DNA of 39,351 nucleotides from Pirellulales bacterium. GTDB taxonomy: Bacteria > Planctomycetota > Planctomycetia > Pirellulales > JAICIG01. This document shows positions 1,754 through 25,700 of this stretch, piece by piece. Position numbers and translations under genes: made by a program. The DNA lies in assembly GCA_035533075.1 (NCBI GenBank), contig DATLUO010000249.1:1-39351 (forward strand), in the 5' to 3' direction. Numbering within the stretch: the stretch's first letter is position 1; the number at the start of each line of letters is the position of its first letter. Under the pieces are notes generated by a model, which had not been told where the DNA came from, did no database searches, and saw only the letters and a list, made by a program, of their open reading frames with translations.

Positions 1754-2596
1754 ATGATCCACTGTCCCGCCGTCCGCAAAGACGGCATCCGCTGGCACTA
1801 TGACCTGTCGACGCTGTTCTACCGGCTGCTCTGGGGGCGGCACATCCATCATGGACTGTGGGACGGCTCCGAGTCGCCCGCCGTGGCCCAGCAGAAGCTC
1901 ACCGAGACGCTGGCCGCGGCCGCCGGCATTCAGGGAGCCGAGCGCGTGCTCGACGTCGGCTGCGGCATGGGCGGTTCGTCGATCTTCCTGGCCAAACGGC
2001 ACCACTGCCGAGTGAGCGGCGTAACGCTCAGTCCCTTGCAGCGGATTTGGGCGTCGTCCGCGGCGCAGATGCAAGGGGTGGCCCGGCAGACGGATTTTCG
2101 CTGTGTCGATGCCGAGCAGGCGGTGATCCTTCCCGGATCATTCGACGTCGTGTGGAGCATCGAATGTACGGAGCACTTGTTCGACAAGCCGAAGTTTTTC
2201 CAGCGGGCGGGCGAGTGGCTGCGGCCCGGCGGGCGTGTGGCCATCTGCGCCTGGCTGGCCGGCAACCCGCTTGACGGCGAAGAACAGCGGAAACTGGTGT
2301 ACGACGTTTGCGAGGGTTTTTTCTGCCCGTCGCTGGGCACGCAGGAAAACTACGAGCAGTGGATGCGCGACGCGGGGCTGGTCGTCGAGCGGTCTGAGCT
2401 TTGGACCGAGCGCGTGATGCGGACCTGGGAGATTTGTGCCCAGCGAGTGCGATGGACGGGCGTGGGGCTGCTGGGCCGGCTCATCCACCGCGACACCGAC
2501 ATGTTTTTGCGGCGGTTCCAGACGATTCTGGCCGCCTACCACAGCGGCGCCATGCAATACGGCTGCTTCGTCGCGCGTAAACCGGAAGTTGCGTAG
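1754..2596 (+). CDS. Class I SAM-dependent methyltransferase (tocopherol/sterol-type)
   Basis: A protein of 280 aa from the ATG chosen here. GGAGA about ten bases upstream supports this start; a GTG at 1703 in frame would add 17 residues but has no ribosome site. The N-terminus, IRWHYDLSTLFYRLLWGRHIHHG up to about residue 34, is the 'HYD..S.FY...WG..IHHG' entry typical of gamma-tocopherol, sterol and cyclopropane-type methyltransferases. SAM-binding motif I is VLDVGCGMGG at about residues 65-74. It is followed by the acidic VDAEQA loop and the WSIECTEHLFDKPKFFQRAGEWLRPGG segment (motifs II-III). It probably methylates a small hydrophobic acceptor in the cytoplasm or at the membrane. The substrate cannot be read from sequence. 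Its stop codon TAG is also the start of a dispersed GTAGGGTGGG palindromic repeat. Confidence 0.9.
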   Translation: MIHCPAVRKDGIRWHYDLSTLFYRLLWGRHIHHGLWDGSESPAVAQQKLTETLAAAAGIQGAERVLDVGCGMGGSSIFLAKRHHCRVSGVTLSPLQRIWASSAAQMQGVARQTDFRCVDAEQAVILPGSFDVVWSIECTEHLFDKPKFFQRAGEWLRPGGRVAICAWLAGNPLDGEEQRKLVYDVCEGFFCPSLGTQENYEQWMRDAGLVVERSELWTERVMRTWEICAQRVRWTGVGLLGRLIHRDTDMFLRRFQTILAAYHSGAMQYGCFVARKPEVA

Positions 2597-2632
2597 GGTG
2601 GGAGCGAGCGAGCTTGCGAGCGCCGGCCCACC
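2593..2632 (+). repeat. Dispersed palindromic repeat, copy 1
   Basis: The element begins GTAGGGTGGG and ends CGCCGGCCCACC, with an internal GAGCTTGCGAGC. The same ~39-bp element recurs in six other places in the window (6278, 12901, 16709, 16766 inverted, 19898, 22713 inverted), always outside genes. Here the first TAG is the stop codon of the methyltransferase gene. It belongs to the class of small dispersed palindromic repeats of GC-rich genomes. No transposase is encoded. Confidence 0.85.
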
Positions 2633-2639
2633 GATTTGA

Positions 2640-2711
2640 GGCGTCAGGTTTCAGGCGTCAGGCATCAGGGCACATTACCTGACGCCTGACGCCTGATGCC
2701 TGATACCTGAT
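2640..2711. repeat. CAGGCGT-type inverted/tandem heptamer repeat
   Basis: A run of variants of the 7-mer CAGGCGT/CAGGCAT on one side is followed by its reverse complement (CTGACGCCTGACGCCTGATG) on the other. Together they form an imperfect hairpin of about 30 bp per arm around the spacer GCACATTA. A very similar block lies at 6325-6398. In both places it directly follows a copy of the GTAGGGTGGG repeat, so the two elements appear to travel together. Confidence 0.8.
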
Positions 2712-2757
2712 TCTTTGCGGCAGGCGGGACGGCCGCGCAACGAAGGAGTGTGCAAGG

Positions 2758-3540
2758 ATGCGCCGAGCCTGCGGAATCGCCTTTGGAATTGCCACGCACG
2801 CGCTGTTCTTTTATACGCTTTATCGCGTGTTCTTGTTTCTCTTCGCCGATCGGGCGCCGTCGCCGCCGGGACCGCTGTGGTACGATTTTGTGCTCGCGGG
2901 CCAATTTGGCGCGATCCACAGCTTCCTCTTGCACCCCACGACCCGGCGACGCCTCTCGCCCTGGATTCCCCCGCCGTTTTACGGCTGCTTTTTTTCGGCG
3001 GCCACCTGCCTGACGCTATTGATCATGTTCGCGGGCTGGCGATCGGCCGGGCCGACCCTCTGGCGGCTGACAGGCTTTTCCCGGCTGGTTGTGGAAGCGG
3101 CCTATGTCGGATCGTGGCTGATGCTGTTCTATAGCCTCTGCGTTTCGGGCCTGGGCTATCAGACCGGCTTCACGCCGTGGTGGCAGTGGGTCCGAGGCCG
3201 CGAACTGCCGCGTCGCCCGTTCGGCCCGCGCAACATCTATATGGTGTTGCGGCATCCGGTCTATCTGAGCTTCATGGCGACGGTCTGGTTCAACCCCGTG
3301 ATGACGCTCGACCGGCTGCTGCTGGCGGTCGTTTGGACGTGTTACATCTTCGTGGGAAGCTGGCTCAAAGACGAGCGCCTGATTCACTACCTGGGCGACA
3401 CTTACCGCGCCTACCAGGAGAAAGTGCCCGGCTATCCTTTCATGCCGTTCGGCCCATTGGCCCGCCGCAAACGGCACGAGGAGCCAAGCACAGTTCTATT
3501 GCCGCAGGCCGGTGCGCTTGCGGATCGCAAGGCGGCCTAG
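2758..3540 (+). CDS. Isoprenylcysteine methyltransferase/NnrU-like integral membrane protein
   Basis: A protein of 260 aa with about five hydrophobic segments (around residues 5-28, 44-60, 78-98, 110-130, 178-202). The C-terminal half carries the signature of the ICMT/NnrU/PEMT membrane methyltransferase superfamily: NIYMVLRHPVYLSFM (the RHPxY motif, SAM and lipid side), then LKDERLIHYLGDTYRAYQEKVPGYPF (the 'E...L....G..Y..Y...VP.y.P' motif). Such proteins methylate small membrane substrates or act in nitrogen-oxide metabolism (NnrU). The substrate here is unknown. AAGGAG nine bases before the ATG fixes the start. The tail after residue 235 is polar and lacks family features. A second, shorter member of the superfamily lies at 5520-6101. 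Confidence 0.87.
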   Translation: MRRACGIAFGIATHALFFYTLYRVFLFLFADRAPSPPGPLWYDFVLAGQFGAIHSFLLHPTTRRRLSPWIPPPFYGCFFSAATCLTLLIMFAGWRSAGPTLWRLTGFSRLVVEAAYVGSWLMLFYSLCVSGLGYQTGFTPWWQWVRGRELPRRPFGPRNIYMVLRHPVYLSFMATVWFNPVMTLDRLLLAVVWTCYIFVGSWLKDERLIHYLGDTYRAYQEKVPGYPFMPFGPLARRKRHEEPSTVLLPQAGALADRKAA

Positions 3541-3546
3541 CCGTGA

Positions 3547-3744
3547 CTACGATCCTCCGCCCTCACCGCCCGTCATGCCGCCTTCCCCGCCCGCCAGGCT
3601 CGCGGCCATGCCCTGTTGTGAAATGCTCAGCATGTCCTGAATCACTTGCGACGCCGCGGTGTTCGCCGACTGCAAGGCCGACGCGGCCGGGCTCGAAGGA
3701 GCGCTGACGCTGGAAACCGACGAAGATCCAATGGGGGACAACAT
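3547..3744 (-). CDS. Small Ser/Ala/Gly-rich protein A, paralogue of the 59-aa protein at 6470-6649
   Basis: A protein of 65 aa starting with MLSPIGSSSVSS. It is called as a gene because AGGAG lies about eight bases before the ATG and because residues 23-49 match a second small protein 2.9 kb away: ALQSA...SQVIQDMLSISQQGMAAS against ALQAASSQAIQDSLKISSQGQAAS. The conserved block could form one amphipathic helix. The start is Ser/Pro/Val-rich with no signal peptide, and the C-terminus is GGEGGMTGGEGGGS. No family is recognised. The gene is convergent with the membrane methyltransferase before it (6 bases between stops) and divergent from the ligase gene. Possible roles are a regulatory or scaffold peptide or a modified precursor peptide; nothing in the sequence decides this. 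Confidence 0.7.
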   Translation of the reverse strand: MLSPIGSSSVSSVSAPSSPAASALQSANTAASQVIQDMLSISQQGMAASLAGGEGGMTGGEGGGS

Positions 3745-3900
3745 CTTTCATCTCCTATCGTTGACCCGGAAGCCAAATCGTCTGCGGTCGCCGCGCAGAA
3801 GAACCGTCAGCAGAATTATCGACGTGCCTGGCTTGCATGCGCCATTCATACTTGGCGATTCGCAAAACTTTGCCGGTTGGGATAACCGTGTGAGACGCCC

Positions 3901-5280
3901 GTGAGCTTTTTCACTCTACGCAAATTACCGGGCCAGTGCTGGCCTCAACTGCCTGATGCGTGCCTGAGCCAAGTATGGGCGGCCTACCGCGCACTCGACG
4001 CCACTCAATGGCTCGCCGCCGCTGAGCTTGAGCACCGGCAGCTCAGCCAGTTGAACGAGCTCGTCGATCATTGCCGGGAGCACGTGCCTTTCTACCGTGA
4101 CTTGCTGGCGACTCACGGCATCGACGGTAAAGCGATTCAATCGATGAGCGACCTGCGCCGCATTCCGCTCTTGTCGCGCAGCACCTGGCAACAGCACTTC
4201 GACCGCTTTTGCGCCGAGCAACTGCCGCCAGGAACGGTGCCGTTCGACGAAGACCTGACTTCGGGCACCAGCGGCGTGCCCGTGCGCGTGCTCAAGACCA
4301 ACGTCTTTTACGTGTGGTGGCTGGCTTTTTATCTGCGCGACCTGGAGTGGAGCGATCTGCGGCCGAGCGGCACCATGGCGTCGATCCGCAGCACGCTGAA
4401 GACCGGCGTCGATCTCGAACATCTGTTGCAGGGGCAGCGGATGCGTTGCTGGAACCCCGTTTTGGAGCCGCTGCTGGAGACCGGCCAACTGTTCGGCATG
4501 GACCTCCGCCAGGATCCAAAGCGGCAAATCGAATGGCTGATGGAGATCAACCCCGACTACTTACTGAGCCACACTTCCAATCTCGAGCTGTTGGCCAATC
4601 TGCTGCTGGAAGAACCGCGCACGTTTCCCAAGCTGGCCGCCATCCAGGCGATTTCGGAAACGCTCACCGACGAAGCTCGAAGGAAGATCGAGACCGCGTT
4701 TCAGTCGCCGGTGCGAAACCTGTATAGTTGCGCGGAGGCGGGCTATTTGGCGTCGCCCTGCCCCGCGGGCCACGGTTTTCACGTGCATGCCGAGAACGTC
4801 ATCATGGAGATCCTCGACGACGGCGGCCAGCCCTGCCGGCCGGGCGAAACGGGCCGAGTCGTGTTGACGGTGTTGCACAACTTCCGCACGCCGTTCATCC
4901 GCTACGACATCGGCGATTTCGCCGCGCTCGCCGCGCAATCGTGCCCCTGCGGCCGCGGCCTGCCGCTGCTGACGCGCGTGGAAGGCAAGGCCCGGCCCCA
5001 TTTCAAGCTGCCCGGCGGACGGTGGAAACATTCGTCGGAATTGGTCCACGTCGTCACGGCCGTCGGCGCGCACCACCAGCACCAGGTCGTGCAACGCACT
5101 CTCGATCAGGTGATCGTCCGCATCGTGCCGGGCCGCGAATGGACCTCGGAGCATGGTCGACGTCTCGTCGAGGCCGTGCGCGGCTTTTTTGAGTCGTCGA
5201 TCGACGTGCGGTTGGAGGTCAGAGAGCGATTGGAGTTATCGCCCTCCGGCAAACTGCGCAGCATGGTGTGCGAGGCGTAA
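3901..5280 (+). CDS. CapK/PaaK-family AMP-forming ligase (phenylacetate-CoA ligase-like)
   Basis: A protein of 459 aa starting at GTG with only a weak upstream ribosome site. It shows the layout of the phenylacetate-CoA ligase/CapK branch of adenylate-forming enzymes. The N-terminal helix region contains LNELVDHCREHVPFYRDLL (about residues 51-69) and LRRIPLLSR (about 85-93). The P-loop-like LTSGTSGVPVRV lies at about 119-130 and ISETLTDEARRKIETAF near the middle. RYDIGD at about 334-339 is the adenylation core motif, followed by CPCGRGLPLL and a small C-terminal domain ending RLELSPSGKLRSMV. These enzymes activate a carboxylic acid with ATP to an acyl-AMP and usually pass it to CoA or another acceptor. 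CapK relatives often sit in polysaccharide or secondary-metabolite clusters. The two membrane methyltransferase genes on either side suggest work on an apolar or membrane-bound substrate (inference). Confidence 0.88.
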   Translation: MSFFTLRKLPGQCWPQLPDACLSQVWAAYRALDATQWLAAAELEHRQLSQLNELVDHCREHVPFYRDLLATHGIDGKAIQSMSDLRRIPLLSRSTWQQHFDRFCAEQLPPGTVPFDEDLTSGTSGVPVRVLKTNVFYVWWLAFYLRDLEWSDLRPSGTMASIRSTLKTGVDLEHLLQGQRMRCWNPVLEPLLETGQLFGMDLRQDPKRQIEWLMEINPDYLLSHTSNLELLANLLLEEPRTFPKLAAIQAISETLTDEARRKIETAFQSPVRNLYSCAEAGYLASPCPAGHGFHVHAENVIMEILDDGGQPCRPGETGRVVLTVLHNFRTPFIRYDIGDFAALAAQSCPCGRGLPLLTRVEGKARPHFKLPGGRWKHSSELVHVVTAVGAHHQHQVVQRTLDQVIVRIVPGREWTSEHGRRLVEAVRGFFESSIDVRLEVRERLELSPSGKLRSMVCEA

Positions 5281-5519
5281 CGGCCGTCGGCATTCATTTC
5301 GGGAACGTAATGCCCACAACATGTATCCGTCGAACTTCCTCGATAAATCCAAGCGCCGCCCAGGCAAGAGGCCGATACAGAGGATGGGATTGAATCCGCG
5401 ATGCTGTAACTCTCGGTCCGCAAAGGAGAAGCGTTCCAGCGACGTTATGTTCAGGTAACGCTGAATTTGCGGCGGCACGAGCAGACGCCGCATGAATCTC
5501 GAAAGGAGGCTTTGCCGTG

Positions 5520-6101
5520 ATGAACCCCTTATATGCAAGGGCGGTTATTTTTCTTGCAAGCGTCCTGATGATTGTGATCCGGGCGCCCCACGGACAGCGA
5601 AGTCGATCGCTGCCCGTTTTCAAGAGCCGCAAGGGCAGGCTGGAACGCGTGCTGCTGGGCATCAACTACGTGGCCTACTTTTTCCCACTCCTGTGGATCG
5701 CCACGCCGGTGTTCTGGTTTGCCGACTATCCGCTTCGCCCTCTCTCATTTTGCGCGGGCGGCTGTTGTCTTTTGGCCGGGCTGTGGCTCTTCCACCGATC
5801 GCACGCGGACCTCGGCGACAACTTTTCAGTTTCTCTGGAAGTGCGCGAAAAGCACCAACTGGTCACGCACGGTGTTTATCGCCGCGTTCGCCACCCGATG
5901 TATCTGGCGTTTTTCATCTACCTGTCGGGCCAAGCGCTGGTCATTCCGAACTGGCTGGCCGGCCCTAGCGAAGTCATTGTCATGCTGCTGCTTTTTGCGC
6001 TCCGCGTGGAGCGCGAGGAACGGATGATGCTGGAAGCCTTCGGCCACGACTACCGCGCCTACATGGCGTCGACCAAGCGTCTGCTGCCCAGCGTGTGGTG
6101 A
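5520..6101 (+). CDS. Isoprenylcysteine carboxyl methyltransferase-family membrane protein
   Basis: A protein of 193 aa. AGGAGG lies 10 bases before this ATG and 7 before an overlapping GTG at 5517, so the start is certain only to one codon. Hydrophobic segments lie at about residues 5-20, 42-64, 70-88 and 130-160. The ICMT signature is clear: LGDNFSVSLEVREKHQLVTHGVYRRVRHPMYLAFF (SAM-binding RHPMY) and then VEREERMMLEAFGHDYRAYMASTKRLLP (the 'E...L...FG..Y..Y....RL.P' motif). It should be an inner-membrane SAM-dependent methyltransferase acting on a small lipid-like or thiol/carboxyl substrate. It shares only the superfamily motifs with the protein at 2758-3540. The gap after the ligase gene (about 240 bases) shows no gene. 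Confidence 0.88.
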   Translation: MNPLYARAVIFLASVLMIVIRAPHGQRSRSLPVFKSRKGRLERVLLGINYVAYFFPLLWIATPVFWFADYPLRPLSFCAGGCCLLAGLWLFHRSHADLGDNFSVSLEVREKHQLVTHGVYRRVRHPMYLAFFIYLSGQALVIPNWLAGPSEVIVMLLLFALRVEREERMMLEAFGHDYRAYMASTKRLLPSVW

Positions 6102-6277
6102 ATCAGCGGCGCTCGCCCTTTTGCCAAGGAAAACGCAACAAGGGCTTGCCGAAGCGAACTTCAAGGCCGGCGGTGAGTGCCACGTAAACCGGATTTCCGG
6201 TAGGCCGTCTGGGAATCGGCCGAGCGGACGACGCGCAAGGCAGCATAAGCGTGTGGTGCGCGGCACGTGCCTGGTGC

Positions 6278-6316
6278 GTAAGGCGGGGCCAGCGAGCTTG
6301 CCAGCGCTGGCCCACC
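6278..6316 (+). repeat. Dispersed palindromic repeat, copy 2 (diverged)
   Basis: Diverged copy that reads GTAAGGCGGGGCCAGCGAGC at its start and GCGCTGGCCCACC at its end. The GGCCAGCG and CGCTGGCC parts now pair with each other, so the potential to fold is kept although the sequence has changed. Confidence 0.75.
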
Positions 6317-6324
6317 GTTCAAGA

Positions 6325-6398
6325 GGCGTCAGGTTTCAGGCGTGAGGCATCAGGCGCGGTTCTCCGACCGCGGCTGACACCTGAAGCCTGACGCCTGC
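6325..6398. repeat. CAGGCGT-type heptamer inverted repeat, second block
   Basis: Starts GCGTCAGGTTTCAGGCGTGA and returns as CTGACACCTGAAGCCTGACG around a GC-rich centre. It is homologous to the block at 2640-2711 and, like it, directly follows a copy of the GTAGGGTGGG element. Confidence 0.78.
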
Positions 6399-6469
6399 GA
6401 GTGGTCGGCCGGCGCTCGTCCCGGCGCGTTGGGGCCGGCCCCACCTAACGGCGCTCGCGCAGAGATCGC

Positions 6470-6649
6470 TTAGGATCCGTCGTGGTCGCCGTCGGAATCG
6501 AGCGCGGCACTGGCCGCCTGACCCTGCGACGAAATCTTGAGCGAATCCTGGATCGCCTGCGACGAAGCGGCCTGGAGCGCCGCCGTTTGCGGACTGGACT
6601 GGGTGGCGGCCGGCGAAATCGAGGGTGTGCTTGTAATCGATTGCAGCAT
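6470..6649 (-). CDS. Small Ser/Ala-rich protein B, paralogue of the 65-aa protein at 3547-3744
   Basis: A protein of 59 aa starting with MLQSITSTPSISPAATQ. GGGAG six bases before the ATG supports the start. Residues 24-47 (ALQAASSQAIQDSLKISSQGQAAS) align with the 65-aa protein A: identical at ALQ, IQD, IS, QG and AAS, with a three-residue gap. The C-terminus differs: here it is acidic (ALDSDGDHDGS) instead of Gly-rich. There is no signal peptide, Cys or transmembrane segment. Like protein A, it lies downstream of, and convergent with, an ICMT-family gene and is divergent from the next enzyme gene, here the MBL-fold protein. No known family is recognised; the function is unknown. Confidence 0.68.
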   Translation of the reverse strand: MLQSITSTPSISPAATQSSPQTAALQAASSQAIQDSLKISSQGQAASAALDSDGDHDGS

Positions 6650-6863
6650 GTTGGTCTCCCGCGGTTGCGTTAAAGGAAACAGATCACCCCCGGCGACGAT
6701 CTGCCAGTTTTCTCATCGGCCGCGCCAGCGAACAGCGGCACTTTTTTTGAAACTGGCCTGGGTTTGACGATGTTGAGGCTTGTTCCGGATGGATGAGGCG
6801 AACAAGAAGCGTAAACCTTGCCACTTCACCCGCGGGCCGGCCGGTCGCTACAATGCGCGGCGA

Positions 6864-8213
6864 ATGAAGGTGCGAGTTTTGAAATCGGCGTCGGTCCTGA
6901 TCGAGGCCAACGGCGTCAAGATCCTTACCGACCCGTGGTTGGTGGACGGCGAATACTACGGCTCATGGGCGCACTACCCGCCATTTCAATTCGACACGGC
7001 GGTATTCGCCGACGTCGATTTCATTTATCTGAGCCACATCCATCCCGATCATCTCAGCCGCAAGACGCTGGATTTGCTGCCTCGAAGCATTCCGGTGATT
7101 ATTCACGCGTACGCCACTTCTTTTCTGCGGGCCAACATCGAAGGGCTTGGCTTCCGGGCCGTCGAGCTGCCGCATGGCCGACGCACCCATTTGAAGAACG
7201 GCGTCCACATCAACATCTTTGCCGCCGACAACTGCGACCCCGCCCTCTGCGGCCGGTTTTTCGGCTGCGCGCGGTTCGAAAAGAACTTCGGCTCGACGCA
7301 GATCGACTCCTTGTCGGTCATCGATGACGGCAGGCACGTCGTGGTGAACGTCAACGATTGCCCATTTGAACTGGCAAGAGAGAGCATGGCCGCAGTCAAA
7401 CAACAATATGCCGACGTCGATCTGCTGCTGACCGGCTATTCAGGAGCAGGGCCTTATCCCCAATGCTTTCCTCAGTTGTCGTCGGCCGAGCGCGATCGGG
7501 CGGCCGCAGCGAAAAAGTCGCAGTTTCTCGAGCAGGCGCAGAGTTTCATCGTCGCGACGCGGCCTCGTTTTTACATACCGTTCGCCGGCACCTACACGCT
7601 TGCCGGTAAGTTGGCGAGGCTCAATTCGTGCCGGGGAGTGCCGGAGTTGGAAGAGGCCCGCGACTTTTTCGAGCGCGTGGATGCCCCCATCGACCGCGAC
7701 CGCTCACAGTGTGTCGCTCTTGCCTGCGGCGGACATATCGATCTGGCGGCGGGTGAATTCGACTCCGCTCATCTGCCGGCGGACCTGGCTGCCAAGGCAC
7801 GGTACGTTGCCGAAGTCCTCGCGCCTCGACCGCTCGATTACGAGTTGTGCGATCCACCCGATATCGATCCATTGCTGGCGATGGTTCCCAGGGCCTACGA
7901 GCGCATGGAACGCAAACGCCGCCAGCTTGGTTTCAGCAGCCAGACTCGACTGTTCGTGTGCCTCGGCGACGGCGTGAGCGCGCGGCTCTCGTTTTCCGGA
8001 GAAGGGTTTGGGTTCGTAGCCGAGGACGAGGCACGAACCCATGACTCCTATGTGTTGTTCCGCGCCGACCCACGCCTGCTGCTCTGGCTACTCAAAGGAC
8101 CCGAGTTTGCGCACTGGGACAACGCCGAAATCGGCTCCCATATCGAATTCAAACGGCAGCCGAATCGTTTCGAGCGCGGCCTCTACCACGTGATGTGCTT
8201 TTTCCACGTCTGA
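6864..8213 (+). CDS. Metallo-beta-lactamase-fold hydrolase
   Basis: A protein of 449 aa when started at the ATG that opens MKVRVLKSASVLIEANG, which matches where the MBL fold begins. An upstream in-frame ATG at 6789 would add a basic 25-residue extension with no family features. Neither has a good ribosome site. The metal-binding motif is SHIHPDHLS, giving H58-x-H60-x-D62-H63. Later candidate ligands lie in VNVNDCPF (the usual second metal site region) and in FAGTYTLAG. The HxHxDHLS form and the overall length resemble the UlaG/CMP-N-acetylneuraminate-hydroxylase-like branch more than lactamases, but there is no Rieske domain. The C-terminal 120 residues (KRRQLGF...GLYHVMCFFHV) look like a separate small domain. 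It is convergent with the S53 peptidase gene, 15 bases between them. The substrate is unknown. Confidence 0.85.
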   Translation: MKVRVLKSASVLIEANGVKILTDPWLVDGEYYGSWAHYPPFQFDTAVFADVDFIYLSHIHPDHLSRKTLDLLPRSIPVIIHAYATSFLRANIEGLGFRAVELPHGRRTHLKNGVHINIFAADNCDPALCGRFFGCARFEKNFGSTQIDSLSVIDDGRHVVVNVNDCPFELARESMAAVKQQYADVDLLLTGYSGAGPYPQCFPQLSSAERDRAAAAKKSQFLEQAQSFIVATRPRFYIPFAGTYTLAGKLARLNSCRGVPELEEARDFFERVDAPIDRDRSQCVALACGGHIDLAAGEFDSAHLPADLAAKARYVAEVLAPRPLDYELCDPPDIDPLLAMVPRAYERMERKRRQLGFSSQTRLFVCLGDGVSARLSFSGEGFGFVAEDEARTHDSYVLFRADPRLLLWLLKGPEFAHWDNAEIGSHIEFKRQPNRFERGLYHVMCFFHV

Positions 8214-8228: not shown

Positions 8229-10355
8229 TCACCACCATTCTCGTCCGGAATAACCGCCACTTGCGTTGTCAACGACCGATGGCGTCGCGCTACCGCCCCA
8301 CCAGGCATCTTCCGACCGCTGCTCGGCATAGGCGCCATAGAAGCCGTAGTTGCCGGCCGACGCGAAGGGCGTCACCACGTAAACCCACTGCGAGTAGGCG
8401 TACGAGACGTTGTTGAACGCCTCGACCAAGAAATAGGAGACGGAACCGGAACTCAGGCCCGTGACGGTGACGCTGGTTGTCGAACCGTTGACCGTGCCCA
8501 GGAACTCGATGTTGTAGCCATTTGACCAATAGATGTTGTAACCCGTCGCTTGCGATTCCGCGTTCCAACTCAGCTCGACGCTGTTGGACGAGACCGGCGT
8601 GGCGGTGACCAGCGGGGCCGTGACCGACGCGGGCACGACGGGTGCCGGCAGCGTCACACTCACCACCGACGAATCCGCGGTCGACGTGGCGTTATAGGCC
8701 GCCACCATGAACGAGTCGGTCGAGCCGGCCGCAAGGCCGGTCACCTGCACGGCGCTGGTCGTGGAGCTGACGGATCCCAAATACTGGTCTTGGCCGCTGC
8801 TGTTCACCAGATAGACCTGATAACCCTGGGCACCGTTCACCAGGTTCCAATTCAGTTCGGCCGCCGTCGATGAGACGGCGCTGACCGTCAAAGTGGGGGC
8901 CGACAAGACGGGAGCGGGCGTCGGCATCGTCACGCTCACGACAGACGAATCGGCAACCGATGTCGAATTGTACGCCTCCACCACGAACGATTCCGTCGCG
9001 CCTGGCGTTTGTCCGCCAACGTCCACCGAAGTCGCCGAGGAACTGACGGAATTCACAAGCATGTTTTGGCCGTTGACGACCTGATAGATGTTATAGCCTT
9101 GGGCGCCGCTGACCGCGTTCCAGGAAAGTTGGGCGACCGTCGACGACACCGCGGTGGCGGTCACATTCGGGGCTGTCAAGCCTGAACTAGGCGGCGGCGG
9201 TGTGGTGCCGGCCAGTCCGTCGACGATCAGATTGGCGATGGGGCTGCCCAGGCCGGTAACGAGATCGTAGCCCGCGCCGGCCGGGTTGCCATTGCTGCCG
9301 CTGGTAATGTCGTGGAAGTCCGTCGAAGGGAGGCTGTAGAGATCGGCCTGGGCATTGGCGAGCGTGCCGGCCGAGCCACGCGCCTGGTCGGCAATGGCGA
9401 TCAGCGCCGACCATTGCGGCGCCCCGGCGCTGGTGCCGCCGACCGTGAACCAATCGAGTCTCGCATAGGAATCATAGACGGAGAAACCCGTGCTGGGATT
9501 GGCGTCGTAGGCCACGTCGGGCGACGTGCGGGTGCCGTACGACTGGACCGATGTTTGGTACGCCGGCTCGGCCTCGTATTGGCTCACGCCGCCGCCGCTG
9601 TCGCTCCACGCGCTTTCGCTGCCGTAGCTTCCGTTGCTGTTCAGATTGAGCGTCGTGCCGCCCACGGCCAACACGTTGGGCGACAGCGAAGGCCACACTC
9701 CCGGCGCGCCCGAATCGCCCGACGAAGCCACGAACGTGATGCCGATGTGGCCGGTAGGCGTAGTGAAGTGGCTGTCGTACGACATTTCCGACGAGAACTC
9801 GTTAGAACCCCAGCTCATGGAAACGACGCTCACATTCGGCAGGTTGCGTGCCACGTCGACCGCCGAAAGCAGGTTGCCGAGGCTGGCCGACGGTGCTTCG
9901 ACGAGCACGATGTTGGCCTGCGGCGCCATGGCGTGGGCCCACTCGACGTCGAGCGAGATCTCCTCCGACCAGCCGCTGTTGCCCTGCGGCCTTCGACCGC
10001 CCACAAACTGCTCGGTGAAGCTGGGTGGAGCGGCCAGCCCGAACTTCTGGTCGAACGTCGCCAGGTCCTGTTGGATGCTCGGATCGTCGTAGGCGTCGAC
10101 GATGGCGATCGTCTCGCCGGCGCCGCTGCCGGCTTCATTGAAGCCGTAGGCCTGGCTCACCTGCTGCGGCGTCAGGCCGGTTGGATTATTCGAAGCAGCC
10201 GCGCTATGACGCATCATTTCGGGCTGCATAATGATCGACGTGGCCGCGGAAGCCGACAACAACGACCGGACTTCCAGTGCTTCGAAACTCCGCAATTTGT
10301 TCCGCCGGCGGGCATGGGCAGACCGTTTGAACGTGGTCCTTCTCGAACCGAACAT
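8229..10355 (-). CDS. Secreted S53 (sedolisin) serine-carboxyl peptidase with three fibronectin-III-like domains
   Basis: A protein of 708 aa. The chosen ATG (MFGSRRTTFK) has GGAGA eight bases upstream; an in-frame upstream start lacks this. The N-terminus is basic and then carries FEALEVRSLLSA at about residues 24-35, an LEPR-XLL type export motif. The sedolisin catalytic domain follows at about 60-385. It has Glu132 and Asp136 in EEISLDVEWAHAMAP, Asp214 in SSGDSGA (oxyanion hole), Ser309 in GGTSAGAP and the calcium-site signature DITSGSNG...AGYDLVTGLGSP. All key residues are present, so it is probably active. The usual long inhibitory prodomain is absent: only about 30 residues separate the LL motif from the catalytic domain. 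Three FN3-like repeats, each with a 'SW(N/D)xxxxAxGYxxY' core, fill residues 390-670. It probably acts outside the cytoplasm on proteins. Confidence 0.93.
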   Translation of the reverse strand: MFGSRRTTFKRSAHARRRNKLRSFEALEVRSLLSASAATSIIMQPEMMRHSAAASNNPTGLTPQQVSQAYGFNEAGSGAGETIAIVDAYDDPSIQQDLATFDQKFGLAAPPSFTEQFVGGRRPQGNSGWSEEISLDVEWAHAMAPQANIVLVEAPSASLGNLLSAVDVARNLPNVSVVSMSWGSNEFSSEMSYDSHFTTPTGHIGITFVASSGDSGAPGVWPSLSPNVLAVGGTTLNLNSNGSYGSESAWSDSGGGVSQYEAEPAYQTSVQSYGTRTSPDVAYDANPSTGFSVYDSYARLDWFTVGGTSAGAPQWSALIAIADQARGSAGTLANAQADLYSLPSTDFHDITSGSNGNPAGAGYDLVTGLGSPIANLIVDGLAGTTPPPPSSGLTAPNVTATAVSSTVAQLSWNAVSGAQGYNIYQVVNGQNMLVNSVSSSATSVDVGGQTPGATESFVVEAYNSTSVADSSVVSVTMPTPAPVLSAPTLTVSAVSSTAAELNWNLVNGAQGYQVYLVNSSGQDQYLGSVSSTTSAVQVTGLAAGSTDSFMVAAYNATSTADSSVVSVTLPAPVVPASVTAPLVTATPVSSNSVELSWNAESQATGYNIYWSNGYNIEFLGTVNGSTTSVTVTGLSSGSVSYFLVEAFNNVSYAYSQWVYVVTPFASAGNYGFYGAYAEQRSEDAWWGGSATPSVVDNASGGYSGREWW

Positions 10356-10433
10356 GCGTCTATTCTCCGTGTGCTTTCTCAGAGCCAAAACGTCTGCCGT
10401 CCGTTGAGCGGCCGGCACCACCCGGTATTTTTA

Positions 10434-14177: not shown

Positions 14178-15122
14178 TTACCAGCGGACATCGCGGCGCG
14201 GACTCATGGGCCAGCGGGCGTCGATTTCGCGGATGTTAGCCAGGGCCGATTCGTCAAGATCGGGCGGGATCATGATCTGCACTTCGGCAAACAGGTCGCC
14301 CGGCGGCCGGCCCGCCACGGCCACGCCGTGCCCCTTGATGCGGAGCTTGCGGCCGCTGGAGCTGCCCGGCGGCACGCGCAACGAGACGGTCCCTTGCGGC
14401 GTCGGCACGTCGACTTTGGCCCCCTCGGCGGCCTCGCGCAGCGTGAGCGGCAGCCGGACGTAAAGGTGGTCGCCGCGCCGCGTGAAATACGGATGCGATG
14501 CCACACGGACCGTCACGAACAAATTTCCCCGCGGACCGCCGTTGAGACCCGGGTCTCCGCGGCCCCGCAGGCGCAGCTTCTTGCCGTCTTCGATGCCGGC
14601 CGGGATTTTGACCGTCAGCGTCTCCGTCTCGCCGCTTTCGTGCTGCAAGGTGAGCTGCGTCTCGCCGCCGCTCACCGCCAGGTTGAAAGGAATCTCGACT
14701 TGGGCCGTCACATCGGCCCCGGCCAGGCCGCCGGCGGCGCGACCGCGCCGTGGCCCTCCGCCGCGGCGCCGCATCTGGCTGAAGATGTCGCCAAAGCCGC
14801 CGGGCGCCTCGCCTCCAAAGAACTGGGCAAAGTCGAAACCTTCGGGCCCCGCGTTGGACGACCAGGTGCCGCCAGCCCGCGGACCGCCGCCTTGCGCCGC
14901 CTGCTCGAAGGCGCTGCCGTAGCGGTCGTACAACTCGCGCTTCTTGGGATCTTTCAGCACGTCGTAGGCGGCCTGGATCTCCTGGAACTTCTTCTTGGCG
15001 TTCTTGTCGTCGGGGTTGACGTCGGGGTGAAATTTGCGCGCCAGCTTCGCGTAGGCCTTATCGATTTCGGCCTGCGAAGCGCCGCGGTTGATGTCCAGCG
15101 ATTTGTAGTAGTCTTCTGCCAT
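14178..15122 (-). CDS. DnaJ/CbpA-type Hsp40 co-chaperone without zinc finger
   Basis: A protein of 314 aa. The start giving MAEDYYKSLDINRG matches where J domains begin. The J domain spans residues 1-70 with HPD at 32-34 (FHPDVNPDD). A Gly/Phe-rich linker follows (about 76-130, with FGGEAPGGFGDIFSQMRRR). Two C-terminal beta-domains follow, with AQVEIPFNLAVSGGETQLTL and VPTPQGTVSLRVPPGSSSG...LRIKGHG. There is no CXXCXGXG zinc-finger block, so it is a class II (CbpA/DnaJ2-like) co-chaperone. It should stimulate ATP hydrolysis by a partner Hsp70, most likely the Hsp70 encoded 26 bases upstream. It runs leftward in one chaperone operon that continues into rnpA-yidD. Confidence 0.93.
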   Translation of the reverse strand: MAEDYYKSLDINRGASQAEIDKAYAKLARKFHPDVNPDDKNAKKKFQEIQAAYDVLKDPKKRELYDRYGSAFEQAAQGGGPRAGGTWSSNAGPEGFDFAQFFGGEAPGGFGDIFSQMRRRGGGPRRGRAAGGLAGADVTAQVEIPFNLAVSGGETQLTLQHESGETETLTVKIPAGIEDGKKLRLRGRGDPGLNGGPRGNLFVTVRVASHPYFTRRGDHLYVRLPLTLREAAEGAKVDVPTPQGTVSLRVPPGSSSGRKLRIKGHGVAVAGRPPGDLFAEVQIMIPPDLDESALANIREIDARWPMSPRRDVRW

Positions 15123-15148
15123 CTCACCTAGCATAGCAGACCGCGGCC

Positions 15149-16690
15149 CTAGGCGCCGACGATCCGCTTTCGCCATTCGTCGAGCTGCTCGCGGCCGAGG
15201 CTGTTGTCGCGATTGATCTCTTGCTGCGCCTTGCGGCCGGTGCCGGCCACACCCACTTGCACCGACAAGCGGCCGTCGGCCCCATAACGGAACTCGACGT
15301 CGATCGGCGAACGGGCCGGCAAGCCGCGCGGCAAGTCGCGAATCACGCACGTGCCCAGCGGCGTGCAGGCTTCGGGCGACGGGCTTTCACCCTCGACAAT
15401 CTGCACCAGAATCGATCCCTGGTTGTCTTTCGACGTCTTGAACGCGCGGTGCGCCTTCACCGGCAACGTCGTGTTGCGGGGAATCAGCACCGCCGTGCGC
15501 TTGCGCTTGGTCGTCGGGTCGGTGCCCACCACGCCCAGGCTGTGCGAGTTTACGTTGCGCACCTTGAAGGCCGGCGGTTGGCCCTGACTCCTGGCCAGAA
15601 TCAACCCGGCCTGCAAAGCGGCCCCCTGGGCCACCGCCTCGTCGGGCGAAACCGAAGCGTCGGGTTCTTTGCCCGAAATCTGACGCAGCATGTCGACCAC
15701 CATCGGCATCCGCGACGAGCCGCCGACCAGCAACACGCGGTCGATGGCGCCCCAGTCGAGATCGGCCGCCCGCAGCACCTGCCGCACGGTGAACTGCGTG
15801 CGGTCGAGCAGGTCGCGGGTGATTTCCTGAAAGTGTTCGCGGGTCACTTCCACGCGCAGCGACTCGCCGCGGAAATGGCAGGTGACCGAGGCTTTCTTGC
15901 GGGCCGAGAGGGCCCGCTTGGCGTCTTCGCACTCCCGCCACAGCCCGCCGGCCGTGCTCGGATCGGTGCGCGGGTCGAACCGCGGATCGTGGCGATGCGC
16001 CTTCAAAAACTCCTCGGCCACAAAGTCGAGCAGCCGCTGGTCCCAGTCGCGGCCGCCGAGCTGCACGTCGCCGTCGGTGGCCAAGGCCGTAAACTCGGTG
16101 CCTTTGATCTCCATCAACGTCACGTCGAACGTGCCGCCGCCCAAATCATACACCAGCACCTTCTGCGGCGCGTGGGCCTCGCCTTGGGCGTTCAAAAAAC
16201 CTTGCTGGAACCCGAAGGCCACCGCGGCGGCCGTCGGTTCGTTGATGATGTCGAGCACGTCGAGGCCGGCCATGTAGCCCGCGTCTTGCGTTCCTTTGCG
16301 GCGCACCTCATCGAAATAGGCCGGCACGGTAACGACCGCCTTGTCGAACGGCCCGATCTGCCGCGCGGAATCGTCGCGCAGCTTTTTGAGGATGTAGGCC
16401 AGCAAGACTTCGGGTGGGTACTTCTTGTTATCGACCGCGCGGCGATACTCACGCGAGCCCATGTCGCGCTTGGCGCAATCGGCCACGCGCTCGGCTTCGG
16501 TGGCCATGGCCTTGACCGCCTCTTTGCCCACGACGACGTCGTCCCCGTCGAACAGCACCACGCTGGGCGTGGTCAGGTCGCCTTCGGCATTGGGCACGGT
16601 GACCGGCCGCCCGGTGTCGTCCAGCCGCGCCACGGCGGAGAACGTGGTGCCCAGGTCGATGCCAACGGCGGGTCCGAGAGGAGAGGTCAT
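15149..16690 (-). CDS. Hsp70-family chaperone, short form
   Basis: A protein of 513 aa against about 610-640 for DnaK. The actin-like ATPase is complete: phosphate-1 GIDLGTTFSAV (about residues 10-20), INEPTAAAVAFG, phosphate-2 VYDLGGGTFDVT (about 182-193) and the adenosine motif LLVGGSSRMPMV (about 318-329). A beta-type substrate-binding part follows (SHSLGVVGTDPTTKRKRTAVLIPRNTTLP, then QGSILVQIVEGESPSPEACT), ending about residue 490 with a short Arg/Lys-rich tail. The long helical lid of DnaK is missing. It would be a cytoplasmic Hsp70 of reduced form. It is followed closely by the DnaJ-like gene. Upstream it is separated from a second Hsp70 gene by a strong inverted repeat. No obvious ribosome site precedes the ATG. 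Confidence 0.93.
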   Translation of the reverse strand: MTSPLGPAVGIDLGTTFSAVARLDDTGRPVTVPNAEGDLTTPSVVLFDGDDVVVGKEAVKAMATEAERVADCAKRDMGSREYRRAVDNKKYPPEVLLAYILKKLRDDSARQIGPFDKAVVTVPAYFDEVRRKGTQDAGYMAGLDVLDIINEPTAAAVAFGFQQGFLNAQGEAHAPQKVLVYDLGGGTFDVTLMEIKGTEFTALATDGDVQLGGRDWDQRLLDFVAEEFLKAHRHDPRFDPRTDPSTAGGLWRECEDAKRALSARKKASVTCHFRGESLRVEVTREHFQEITRDLLDRTQFTVRQVLRAADLDWGAIDRVLLVGGSSRMPMVVDMLRQISGKEPDASVSPDEAVAQGAALQAGLILARSQGQPPAFKVRNVNSHSLGVVGTDPTTKRKRTAVLIPRNTTLPVKAHRAFKTSKDNQGSILVQIVEGESPSPEACTPLGTCVIRDLPRGLPARSPIDVEFRYGADGRLSVQVGVAGTGRKAQQEINRDNSLGREQLDEWRKRIVGA

Positions 16691-16708
16691 GCGAGCGAGT
16701 TATCGACA

Positions 16709-16804
16709 GTAGGGTGGGACCAGCGAGCTTGCGAGCGCCGGCCCACCGTAATCGACGTCGCCAACGGTGGGCCGGCGCTCGCAAGCTCGCTGGTCCCACC
16801 CTAC
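16709..16804. repeat. Perfect 39-bp inverted repeat (two copies of the dispersed palindromic element)
   Basis: Two copies of the GTAGGGTGGG element face each other: 16709-16747 and 16766-16804, with 18 bases between. The right arm is the exact reverse complement of the left arm over 39 bases. In RNA this would be a 39-bp stem. It lies in the gap between the two Hsp70 genes, before the start of the downstream one. It could end transcription, stabilise the downstream mRNA or be a target for RNase III; the sequence does not decide. Confidence 0.9.
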
Positions 16805-16843
16805 GTTCGTTGCCAAACCAAAAACAAAAATCATCGTTTGCAC

Positions 16844-19024
16844 CTAGTGGCTAGCTTCGGGTGCCGCGGGGGCTTCCACTTTCCAGGGAAACAGGCCCGG
16901 AGGCAAGCCGAGAAAGTTTCCACTCGGGTTGAGCCAGCACAGTATATAGTAGCCAAGCACCAGACCGATGACGGCCGACAATCCGAAACCGACCACGCTC
17001 ACCATGCCGCTGGTGCTCTTGCGTGGCTGGATTCTCGGCGTCGAAGTCGCCGGCGGCGATGGGGCCGCCAGCGGCGCCGCGGCCGGAGCCGCCATGGGCT
17101 GCGGATTCAGCGGACGCGGCGAGACGGGCTGCGACCACGCTGCCGGCCGGGCCGCTTCACCCGCCGCCGGTGCCGCGGTCGGCAAACCGGCCAGAAGCGG
17201 CCGCGACATGCTCGACGGCGCCGGTGCGCTGAGCGGCACGGGCCGCGCCGCACCCGCGGGCGCCATCGGCGCGGGAGACGATGGCACAATCGTCGGACTC
17301 GAAATCCCGCTCGGGTTCATCGGAATCGGCATGGTCGCGGCTGGGGGCAACGGAGCCGGGTCCACGGGCACGCTGGCACACTTCGCCTCAGCCGACGCGC
17401 CCAGATGATCGACATTCGCCGCCGGCGCGAACCCCGGCGTGTTCTTGGCCAACTTCAATTCGTCGGCGATGATGTCGGCGAAAACGTCCATGCCGCCGGC
17501 GGTGCTGACGGCTTGCTTCCATCTCGCTATCCGCTCGTCTGACAGGGCGCCTTCGCGTTCGAGCTGCAGCTTCACCTCGCGATTGGTGCCCGGCACCGTC
17601 GCCGACACTTTCAGACGTCCGTTCGTTTCGTACTCGTAGGTGATCTCCACGGGCCAGCCCGCCGGCAGGCCCGGCGGCAGGTCGCGCAGCGAGGTGCGGC
17701 CGATCGACGCGCAGTCGCTGGGCGCTGAGCTTTCGCCCTCCAGCACCTGCACCACGATCGAGCGCTGGTTCTCCATTTTCGTGACGAACCGTTCTTTCAC
17801 CTTGGCGGGCAGCGGCGTGTTGCGCGGAATCACAATCACGTTCCGCTTCCGCTGCGTCTTCGAATCGATGCCTTCGATGCCCAGACTGTGCGAATTGATG
17901 TTGGTGACGGTGAAGGCCGGGGCCTTGGCGCTGTCGGGCTGCGTGGCCAGCAAATAGCCGGCGTAGATCGCGGCCCCGCGGGCCACGGCTTCGTCCGGGT
18001 GAACGCGGCGGTCGGGCTCGATGCCCGAAAGTTGCGAGAGCATGCGGCCGACCATCGGCATGCGCGTGGCGCCGCCGACCAGCAGCAGGCGCTGGATGTC
18101 TTTCCACTCCAGACCGGCGGCGCCGAGCACCTGGCGGGTGGTGTACGACGTTCGCTCCAGCAGATCGGCGGTGATCTGCTCGAACAACTCGCGCGTGACT
18201 TTGACCGTCGTGGAGCTGCCCGCATGATCGACGCGGATGGTGGCGTTTTGTCGGGCACTCAAGGTGCGTTTCGCTTCTTCGACTTCGGTCAGCAGCCGCT
18301 GCAAGCTGGCCGGGTTGGTGCGCGGGTCTTCGCGATGTTCTTTGACGAAGGCTTCGGCGGCGTGATCGGCCAGGCGCATGTCCCAATCTCGGCCGCCCAG
18401 CCGCACGTCGCCGTCGGTGGCCAGGGTGCGGAGGTCGCCGGGCCGCATGTCGAGAACGGTCACGTCGAACGTGCCGCCGCCCAGGTCATACACGAGCACC
18501 TTGAGCGGCTCGCGCACTTCGCCGCTGATCGTGAGATAGCCCAGTTCTTCGCCAAAGGCCAAGGCCGCCGCGGTCGGCTCGTTGACCACATCGAGCACGG
18601 GCAAGGCGGCCATGCTGCCGGCGTCGGCCGTGGCTTTGCGGCGCGGCTCGTCGAAGAACGCCGGCACGGTGATCACCGCCCGGAAATCGGGCCCCAGCGT
18701 CCGCAGGATGTCGGCCTTGAGTTTCTTCAGCACCCAGGCCTGCACCACTTCGGGCGGCATATATTCGCCGCAGATGGCCCGCGAATAGACCGGGCTGCCC
18801 ATATCGCGCTTGACACACTCGGCGAACCGCGTCGGCTTGAGCGGGCCGACTTTTTTCGCCTCTTTGCCGACGACGATCTCGTCGTCTTCGAACAGCACGA
18901 CGCTGGGCGTGAGAACATCGCCTTCGCTGTTGTGAATCATGGCCGTCTTGCCCGACTCTTGCAGCCAGGAGACGGCGGAGTAGGTGGTTCCCAGATCGAT
19001 TCCAACGGCTCGGTTTCTCGACAT
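16844..19024 (-). CDS. Hsp70-family chaperone with C-terminal membrane anchor
   Basis: A protein of 726 aa. The ATPase is complete: GIDLGTTYSAV at residues 8-18, VNEPTAAALAFG at about 147-158, VYDLGGGTFDVTVLD at 178-192 and LLLVGGATRMPMV at 313-325. The beta-type substrate-binding part (SHSLGIEGIDSKTQRKRN, IPRNTPLPAKV, VQVLEGESSAPSD) continues to about residue 505. Instead of a DnaK lid there is a short helical piece and a long Pro/Ala/Ser/Met-rich linker (about 545-665). One transmembrane segment at about 674-698 (SVVGFGLSAVIGLVLGYYILCW) and 28 more residues end the protein. The chaperone domain should thus face the cytoplasm while held at the membrane. It is 13 bases downstream of the leucine-rich-repeat gene. 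Related to, but clearly different from, the 513-aa Hsp70 downstream. Confidence 0.94.
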   Translation of the reverse strand: MSRNRAVGIDLGTTYSAVSWLQESGKTAMIHNSEGDVLTPSVVLFEDDEIVVGKEAKKVGPLKPTRFAECVKRDMGSPVYSRAICGEYMPPEVVQAWVLKKLKADILRTLGPDFRAVITVPAFFDEPRRKATADAGSMAALPVLDVVNEPTAAALAFGEELGYLTISGEVREPLKVLVYDLGGGTFDVTVLDMRPGDLRTLATDGDVRLGGRDWDMRLADHAAEAFVKEHREDPRTNPASLQRLLTEVEEAKRTLSARQNATIRVDHAGSSTTVKVTRELFEQITADLLERTSYTTRQVLGAAGLEWKDIQRLLLVGGATRMPMVGRMLSQLSGIEPDRRVHPDEAVARGAAIYAGYLLATQPDSAKAPAFTVTNINSHSLGIEGIDSKTQRKRNVIVIPRNTPLPAKVKERFVTKMENQRSIVVQVLEGESSAPSDCASIGRTSLRDLPPGLPAGWPVEITYEYETNGRLKVSATVPGTNREVKLQLEREGALSDERIARWKQAVSTAGGMDVFADIIADELKLAKNTPGFAPAANVDHLGASAEAKCASVPVDPAPLPPAATMPIPMNPSGISSPTIVPSSPAPMAPAGAARPVPLSAPAPSSMSRPLLAGLPTAAPAAGEAARPAAWSQPVSPRPLNPQPMAAPAAAPLAAPSPPATSTPRIQPRKSTSGMVSVVGFGLSAVIGLVLGYYILCWLNPSGNFLGLPPGLFPWKVEAPAAPEASH

Positions 19025-19897: not shown

Positions 19898-19970
19898 GTA
19901 GGGTGGGACCAGCGAGCTTGCGAGCCCCGGCCCACCGACGAAGGGTTCAGGGTTCAGGGTTCTGGGTTCT
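19898..19970. repeat. Dispersed palindromic repeat, copy 5, followed by GGGTTCA heptamers
   Basis: 19898-19936 is a copy of the GTAGGGTGGG element with one change (CCCCGG for CGCCGG). It is followed after a short spacer by three to four copies of GGGTTCA/GGGTTCT. The same order, palindrome then heptamer run, occurs at 2593-2711 and 6278-6398 with a different heptamer (CAGGCGT). Confidence 0.8.
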
Positions 19971-22712: not shown

Positions 22713-22748
22713 GGTGGGCCGGCGCTCGCGAGCTCACGGGTCCCACCG
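22713..22748 (-). repeat. Dispersed palindromic repeat, copy 6 (reverse orientation, diverged)
   Basis: Starts GGTGGGCCGGCGCTCGCGAG and ends CGGGTCCCACC. This is the reverse orientation of the GTAGGGTGGG element with several changes near the right end. It lies just after the giant gene's stop codon. Confidence 0.75.
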
Positions 22749-22752
22749 GGCG

Positions 22753-25700
22753 CTACGACAACTGCCGCACGCTGCCCGACGACGGCGGCGGCGGAGTGTT
22801 GCGATACTCGGTACTGTCGATGATCTCGATCTGCACGCTGCGCTGCGTGGCGCCCTGCTGGAACTGCTGCACGTAGCCGGCCAGCTCGGCGGACGTCGGA
22901 GCGCGGTTCAGATACTCCTGGAAGAAGCCGATCGTCACGTTCTGGAAGTTCTCCGTGCTGTACTCGAAGCCGTTCACCACGTCGACCCGCGTCATCGCGC
23001 CCGAGTCGAGGTTGGTGGTCCAGAATTGCAGGCCGGCGCTGTCAGGCTCGCGGTTCAAGAGCCGCTCGTAGAGCGCCGTCACCCAGGCCGCGTTGGCCGA
23101 CAAATCGGGATGCGCCGCCGCCGCCTCGTTGAAGAACTCCGGCGAGCTGATCATGCCCGAAATCACGTGCTCCGGCCCGCCGTAGACCTTCCACACGTCG
23201 TCGCGCCAGTAGGTCAGGCCGCTCGCATCGGCCGGACGCAACAGGAACTGTTGGTAGTAGTTCTCGATGATCGGGTCGAGCCGTTCGTCGCTTTCGAAGA
23301 TGCCCTGGGCAACGATGCTCAGCGGCTGGCCTTGCTGGATCAGCGTGGTCCAGTAGGCCAGTCCGCCCGAATCGGGAGCGCGGCCCAGCACCTGCTGGTA
23401 GAGCTTCTCGACGAGCGTGGCCTCGTAGGCCGTCACCGTGACGGTGGCCACGCTGCTGTTCAACTGTCCGTCGTTCACCACATAGCTGAAAGTGTCGGTG
23501 GCCTGGAAGTTCGCGCCCTTGGTATAGGTGAAGGAGCCGTCGGCGTTGAGCTGCACGCTGCCGGCGGAGGGCGGAGTGACAAGCTGCACCGAGAGCGGCA
23601 GCCCGTTGGGATCGGTGTCGCCCACCAGCACGCCGTCGCCGGCGGTGGCCGAGCTGCTGCCGCCCACGCCGAGCACGTAGGAGTGGTCGATGGCCGTCGG
23701 CACGCCGTCGACCTCGATGGTGAAGGTCTGCGCGGCCGACGTGTTTTGGCCGCCGTTGGCCGTGCTGCCGCTGTTGTGCAGCACGACGGAGAAGGTCGTC
23801 TTGCCAAACTGGTTGGCGGCGGGCGTGAAGGTCAGGTTGCCCGTCGTCGGGTCGATCGTGGGCAGCGTGGTAAACAGGTTCGCGTTGCTGGTCGAGACGA
23901 CGCTGGTGGTGAAGTTGAGCGTCTCGCCCGACTGGCTCGACGGGCCCTTGCTGATGTTCGTGGCCCAGTTCGGCACCGTTTGCGTGGGCGAATTCATGGC
24001 CACCCGTTCGTTGCCTCCGGCGGTGAACGACGGCGCCTGGTTCACCTGATTGACCGTGACCGAGATTTGATCGGTGGCCGTTCCCGCCTGGTCGGTGGCC
24101 AACAGGTCGATGGTGGCCGTACCGAACTCGTCGTTGAGGAAGTGGAACGTGAGCGTGGCGGTGGCGGGACCGGGGCCCGACAGGCTGGCGGTGAACGGGC
24201 TGGGGCTGCTCATGTTGGCCAGCGACAGCGTCATCGGATCGATGGCGCCGTCCATGTCGTTGAATACCTGTGAGAGCTGGCTGTTGCTGAAAATATAATC
24301 GACCGCGTTCTCGTTCACCGTCACCGGCGGCAGCGGAGCGGCCAGGGTCGGCGGATGGTTGACCCTGTCGACGTTGATGTGGAAGGTGACCGGCTGCGAC
24401 TGGTCGATTCCGCCGTTGGCGGTGCCACCGTTGTCCTGGGCGATGACGGTGACGGTCGCCGTGCCGAAGACGTGCGTGCCGGGCGTGAAGGTGAGCGTGC
24501 CCGACGGGCTGATGGCGGGCCCGCCGTTGGCGGCGAAGAGCGAGTTGTTGTCGTTGGTCACAAGGTAGGTGACCTGCTGCCCGGCCTCGTTGGCGCCTTG
24601 GCCCGGGCTGGACGCGGCCCAGCCGGGGACGGTGGTGGTGGCGGAGTCTTCGTTGACCGTCTGGTCGGGGCCGATGTGGGTGAACATCGGCGGGTCGTTG
24701 ACGAAGTTGACGGTGATGGGGAAGGTCTCGGTGGCCGAGGTATCGACGCCGCCGTTGGACGTGCCGCCGTTGTCTTGCAGATCAACGGTGATCTGCGCGC
24801 CGCCGCTGACGTCCGGCGCCAGTGTGTAGGTGAGCGTGCCGGTGGGGCCGATGGCCGGCGGCACGGAGAACAGGCCCGGATTGGTGTCGCCGACCACATT
24901 GAAGTGGACCGTCTGGCCGGCCTCGTTGGCTTCCGGCGGATAGTTGCCCGAAGGGCTGATGTTGCTGGCGAAGTTGGCGATCGAATGGGCGCCGGTGGTG
25001 CCGGCGGCATCGACCTGCAAGTCGAACTCGTTGACGGGGGGCGGATTGCTCGCAAAGACGAAGCTGGGGGCGTCGTTCACATAGTTGGCGACGATGGTGA
25101 ACGTCTGAGTGACCGACGTATCTTGGCCGCCGAAGGCCGTGCCGCCATTGTCCTGCAGGCTGACGGTCACCTGGTCGATGCCGCTGACGTTGGGGTTCAG
25201 CGTATAGGTGAGCGTGCCGGTGCCGTCGCCGTTGACGACGATCGCCGGGGCGACCGCGAACAGACTGGGGTTGCTGTCGGCGAGATTGAACTGCAGCGTC
25301 TGACCGGCCTCGTTGGCTTCGGGCGGATACTGCTCAGAAGGGCTGACCTTCTGCACGAAATCCTTGAAGCTCACAGCGCCGGCGTCTTCGTAGACGGCCG
25401 GCGGGTTGGCGGGCAGGAAGAAGCTGGGAGCGTCGTTGACAAAGCGTACGGGCAGGATGGCCGTGGCCGTCGCGGCGCTGAAGGGCCACGATCCGGCCGT
25501 GCCATTGGCCGTGACGGAACTGTCGAAGGCAGTCAGGTCGACCAACGTGCCATGGGTATCGGGACCGCCGGTGCCCTGGTCCCAGGTGCTGTCCCAGGCC
25601 TGGAACGACATGCTGGGGGCCGCGCCGTGGCCGGCATTGTCGCCGCTGAAGTTGGCTTCGGGCAGGAACCGCACCCAGTCGTTGCCGCCCAGCAGCAGGG

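Follow-up and report, generated by a model that had tools for sequence, protein, structure and literature searches.

The described proteins closest to the small genes reported here are the taxonomically restricted (orphan) small proteins of bacteria and the putative motility protein YjfB (PF14070). Like the former, the present family has fewer than 70 aa, no recognised domain, a distribution that seems limited to one bacterial family and a variable tail; it differs from orphan small-protein families in general by the presence, in one genome, of a second copy 2.7 kb from the first, and is otherwise ordinary. The likeness to YjfB lies in a length of 60–68 aa, a polar start and a single helix with a central Q-G, but the Pirellulales members of YjfB carry a conserved Lys and a C-terminal G..fD motif, and the present family has neither. 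A literature search on YjfB returned no paper, and searches for reports on small proteins in this planctomycete group returned nothing relevant.

The two genes, m1 and m2, lie in the window, the whole analysed stretch of 39,351 nucleotides from a Pirellulales bacterium (Table 1). An earlier note, made from the sequence, had described two minus-strand ORFs of 65 and 59 aa with good ribosome sites, and both were recovered with these lengths and positions. The ribosome sites read GATAGGAGATGAAAG-ATG for m1 and CGGGAGACCAAC-ATG for m2, both purine-rich and 6–7 bases upstream of the ATG. In m1, an uncharged Ser-rich N-terminus is followed by a conserved block, QVIQDMLSISQQGMAAS, and a Gly-rich tail. 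The block of m2, QAIQDSLKISSQGQAAS, leads into an acidic tail, DSDGDHDGS, common to the homologue in GZL_HY_2_bin.141, a metagenome-assembled genome (MAG) of the Pirellulales. Lys and Arg are missing from m1, while m2 and the GZL_HY_2_bin.141 copy have one such residue each. The first 20 residues of the family members are 55–70% S/T/P/I with 0–1 charged residues.

Table 1. Positions of the two probable small-protein genes, their neighbours and an intergenic repeat in the window
Feature	Coordinates	Strand	Evidence and remarks
Small protein gene m1, 65 aa	3547..3744	-	ORF, RBS AGGAG, paralogy, codon constraint
Small protein gene m2, 59 aa	6470..6649	-	ORF, RBS GGGAG, homologue in GZL_HY_2_bin.141 (E 4.5e-7)
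NnrU/MddA-type membrane protein gene, 260 aa	2758..3540	+	PF07298, 27 bits (cut-off 24.7); convergent with m1; judged incidental
CapK/PaaK-type AMP-dependent ligase gene	3901..5280	+	Divergent from m1; judged incidental
Isoprenylcysteine carboxyl methyltransferase (ICMT) family gene	5517..6101	+	Convergent with m2; judged incidental
Metallo-beta-lactamase-fold (MBL) gene	about 6867..8213	+	PF13483, 33.4 bits; divergent from m2; judged incidental
Repeat GCGAGCTTGCSAGCGCYGGCCCACC, six copies	2608-2632, 6292-6316, 16723-16747, 16766-16790, 19912-19936, 22713-22737

Judged from their sequences, m1 and m2 are paralogues of one small-protein family, with a similarity beyond chance. Their local alignment scored 96, a value reached by none of 5,000 shuffles (mean 38, maximum 81). 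The similarity extends past the shared block of ~25 residues noted earlier, with the ML starts, the Ser-rich N-terminus and the helix aligning from the start to the helix end. When the complete 8.5-Mb genome was searched in six frames with m2, m1 (E 2.5e-4) was the sole other credible match, the next one (E 0.91) containing an internal stop, and a profile search found no third copy in this genome.

Outside the window genome, a homologue was sought and one was found, on the minus strand of GZL_HY_2_bin.141 at C95:29841-30029 (query m2, E 4.5e-7). This third member has 63 aa, MLPPVGNSSVSLPPPTLTSDATAEQLIANVAKNFQSLQDTLSLSAAGLAASAQVDGDGDHDGG, and shares with m1 and m2 the ML start, the Ser-rich N-terminus and the block QxxQDxLxxSxxGxAAS; its DGDHDG tail is common to m2 and missing from m1. 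The gene is present in both genomes examined of the same bacterial family. Among 396 genomes of the order, these two alone gave strong matches; five further matches (E 0.001-0.009) were partial and on reading proved to be parts of other frames or stop-bearing, and weak Pirellulales matches that were read through were likewise discarded, being partial, interrupted by stops or embedded in long frames with no relation to the family. The window genome was the only one to match at E 0.001 among 397 genomes of the class, wider scans of genome contigs returned only GZL_HY_2_bin.141, and no family member was found in IMG/VR viral contigs or in plasmids. The profile, built on three members, is thin. 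As these large-set searches score 15-16 candidates per genome, their sensitivity for diverged 60-aa members is limited and some may have been missed. Neither m1 nor m2 had a significant match in Pfam, NCBIfam, PHROGs, PADLOC or PDB sequences, in agreement with the earlier view that no known small-protein family is involved, and positions 2500-7000 had no Rfam match. Within the reach of these searches, the ~60-aa family is restricted to one family of Pirellulales. It is unnamed, yet ordinary as a kind, a lineage-restricted small protein; its interest is that a translated-looking family missed by the family databases is documented in a little-studied planctomycete lineage.

AlphaFold2, run on the three-row alignment, placed a single helix at m2 residues 20-51 (mean pLDDT 67, pTM 0.38), a model of low-to-middling confidence in which no partner is visible. 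The hydrophobic moment of the helix block exceeded that of most shuffles in m1 (0.018) and in the GZL_HY_2_bin.141 copy (0.033), but not in m2 (0.37). With low certainty, we picture a soluble protein whose N-terminal arm, disordered, nearly uncharged and rich in Ser/Thr/Pro, is followed by one helix of ~30 residues with mild amphipathic character (ALQ..QxIQDxLxISxxGxAAS); this helix may self-associate or dock on another protein, and the acidic or Gly-rich tail would be free to vary. The predicted mode of action is probably protein–protein contact, again at low certainty, and it would be independent of the adjacent methyltransferases. A separate ribosome site precedes each gene, and the genomic surroundings in one genome bear no relation to those in the other. 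We consider it fairly likely that m1 and m2 are copies of a lineage-restricted, locally duplicated and real-looking small-protein gene whose product combines such an arm with a docking helix and acts independently of the methyltransferases. A calcium binder of the EF-hand or dockerin type was also considered and rejected: a DxDxDG loop can be read in the tails of m2 (DSDGDHDG) and the GZL_HY_2_bin.141 copy (DGDGDHDG), not in that of m1, and the chain is too short to supply loop positions 9 and 12.

The first alternative is that the proteins are putative substrates or helpers of flagellar (type III) export, a counterpart of the YjfB proteins that other Pirellulales families carry. Their size and design resemble YjfB: the start is unstructured and rich in Ser, a QG sits in the middle of the single helix and the end is flexible. 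The N-terminal composition given above is compatible with type III signals, which are similarly rich in S/T/P/I and low in charge. Flagellin genes occur in both genomes and FlhA in the window genome; a role analogous to YjfB is still conceivable because both genomes have flagellin genes. PF14070 exceeds its cut-off in 4 of 39 genomes of the order, all in other Pirellulales families, and a six-frame search of the window genome and of GZL_HY_2_bin.141 returned nothing at E 10. Against this, membership of YjfB, which was suggested by eye, was not supported: hmmscan of m1 and m2 with PF14070 (model cut-off 27 bits) gave nothing at E 1, and profile–profile comparison with Pirellulales YjfB yielded an hhalign probability of 0.1% and a score below the shuffle mean, with 134 of 200 column shuffles scoring as high or higher. 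The proteins are not recognisable as flagellins either, since scores against the four Flagellin_N-matching proteins of the two genomes were mostly at shuffle level, and the best of them (m1 against L103) was matched or beaten by 12 of 300 shuffles. Moreover, neither the window nor the stretch of GZL_HY_2_bin.141 that was read has flagellar genes next to the small genes, and FlhA was not found in the latter genome (88% complete). We therefore regard a part in flagellar export as unlikely, and the broader proposal of a putative family-specific exported or motility-linked small protein that replaces YjfB-type proteins in this planctomycete lineage as improbable.

The ORFs might also be chance or untranslated frames in high-GC intergenic DNA, given their small size and low-complexity Ser/Ala/Gly composition. 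Codon-level purifying selection was assessed over the 20 codons of the block in the three members, with synonymous sites near saturation. Between m1 and m2, identity by codon position is 0.75/0.70/0.40 (pS 0.79, pN 0.26); against the GZL_HY_2_bin.141 copy it is 0.55/0.60/0.35 for m1 (pS 0.61, pN 0.46) and 0.60/0.70/0.30 for m2 (pS 0.74, pN 0.37). Thus pS exceeds pN in all three pairs, and third positions vary most; GC3 is 0.76-0.78, the highest of the three codon positions. Because third codon positions change most, m1 and m2 appear translated and constrained. The constraint on positions 1 and 2, the similarity to paralogue and homologue exceeding all shuffles, the conserved start and end and the ribosome sites together make chance ORFs very improbable, and the two frames are probably genuine, constrained genes.

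According to the earlier note, each small gene is convergent with a gene of the ICMT/NnrU superfamily and divergent from the next enzyme gene, and the micro-proteins may work with the membrane enzymes. The twofold arrangement is present, but the label ICMT-type fits only one of the two neighbours: the gene at 5517 is a clear ICMT (PF04140, 52.5 bits; NF040696, 210 bits, cut-off 160), and that at 2758 is of the NnrU type and nearer to the methanethiol methyltransferase MddA (NF045656, 87.6 bits, under the cut-off of 270). The stop codons of the 2758 gene and m1 are 6 bp apart, and a gap of 368 bp containing an interspersed repeat separates the 5517 gene from m2. This repeat, GCGAGCTTGCSAGCGCYGGCCCACC, occurs six times in the window with up to 3 mismatches, against 0 expected; the copies at 16723 and 16766 form an inverted pair, and palindromes of the CAGGCGTCAGG type (2640-2712 and 6326-6398) come after the 2608 and 6292 copies.

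A role for the micro-proteins in regulating the neighbouring membrane methyltransferases, or as their subunits, draws on this recurrence within 4 kb, once beside an NnrU-type and once beside an ICMT gene. Yet the small genes lie on the strand opposite to the methyltransferase genes and are not co-transcribed with them, and their products, rich in Ser/Ala/Gln, show no evident transmembrane segment. The sole outside homologue (n=1) occupies a position unrelated to membrane methyltransferases: it converges on a Ser/Thr kinase (STPK) gene and lies downstream of a same-strand gene for an EEP-type nuclease, both named from reading the translations and not by family search. PF04140 has six matches on six contigs of the window genome and four in GZL_HY_2_bin.141, and none of the nine other ICMT loci (five and four, respectively) has a micro-gene nearby, the window locus alone having one. 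At E 1e-20, the CapK-type ligase had no match in GZL_HY_2_bin.141 and the MBL protein none in 38 relatives, GZL_HY_2_bin.141 included. A partnership with the methyltransferases is accordingly highly unlikely, and a functional or evolutionary tie to them is not supported by these comparisons. A recurring gene order, however tempting, is weak functional evidence if the one homologue from another genome has different neighbours.

Also proposed earlier, from the recurrence of the arrangement within 4 kb, was duplication of a unit made up of methyltransferase, micro-gene and enzyme. This is exceedingly improbable: the similarity of the two methyltransferases is distant (27% over 63 aa, with E 0.007 for one comparison) and does not exceed that among members of the superfamily, the CapK-type ligase is not related to the MBL protein, and the DNA upstream of m1 shares no promoter or other similarity with that upstream of m2, aligning no better than shuffles. 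The simplest account would be that, once the two genomes had diverged, the small gene was duplicated locally without its neighbours, because within the block m1 and m2 resemble one another more closely than they do the third member (pN 0.26 against 0.46 and 0.37). An older duplication followed by loss could also explain the pair, as the DGDHDG tail found in m2 and the GZL_HY_2_bin.141 copy is missing from m1.

Elsewhere in the window, 8229-10421 (minus strand) encodes a protease that reads like a member of the S53/sedolisin group; it contains fibronectin-like repeats and, near its N-terminus, a FEALEVRSLLSA motif, a kind of signal found in planctomycete exported proteins. Two adjacent DnaK-like genes occupy 14178-19024 (minus strand) beside a DnaJ-type gene; one of the two DnaK-like products has a long linker rich in Pro and Ala and ends in a membrane segment. 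A giant ORF of 5,521 aa at 22753-39318 (minus strand) starts no more than 33 bp from the end of the contig; cadherin-like stretches recur many times along it, its C-terminus looks like DUF4214 on reading, and it is perhaps a truncated giant surface protein.
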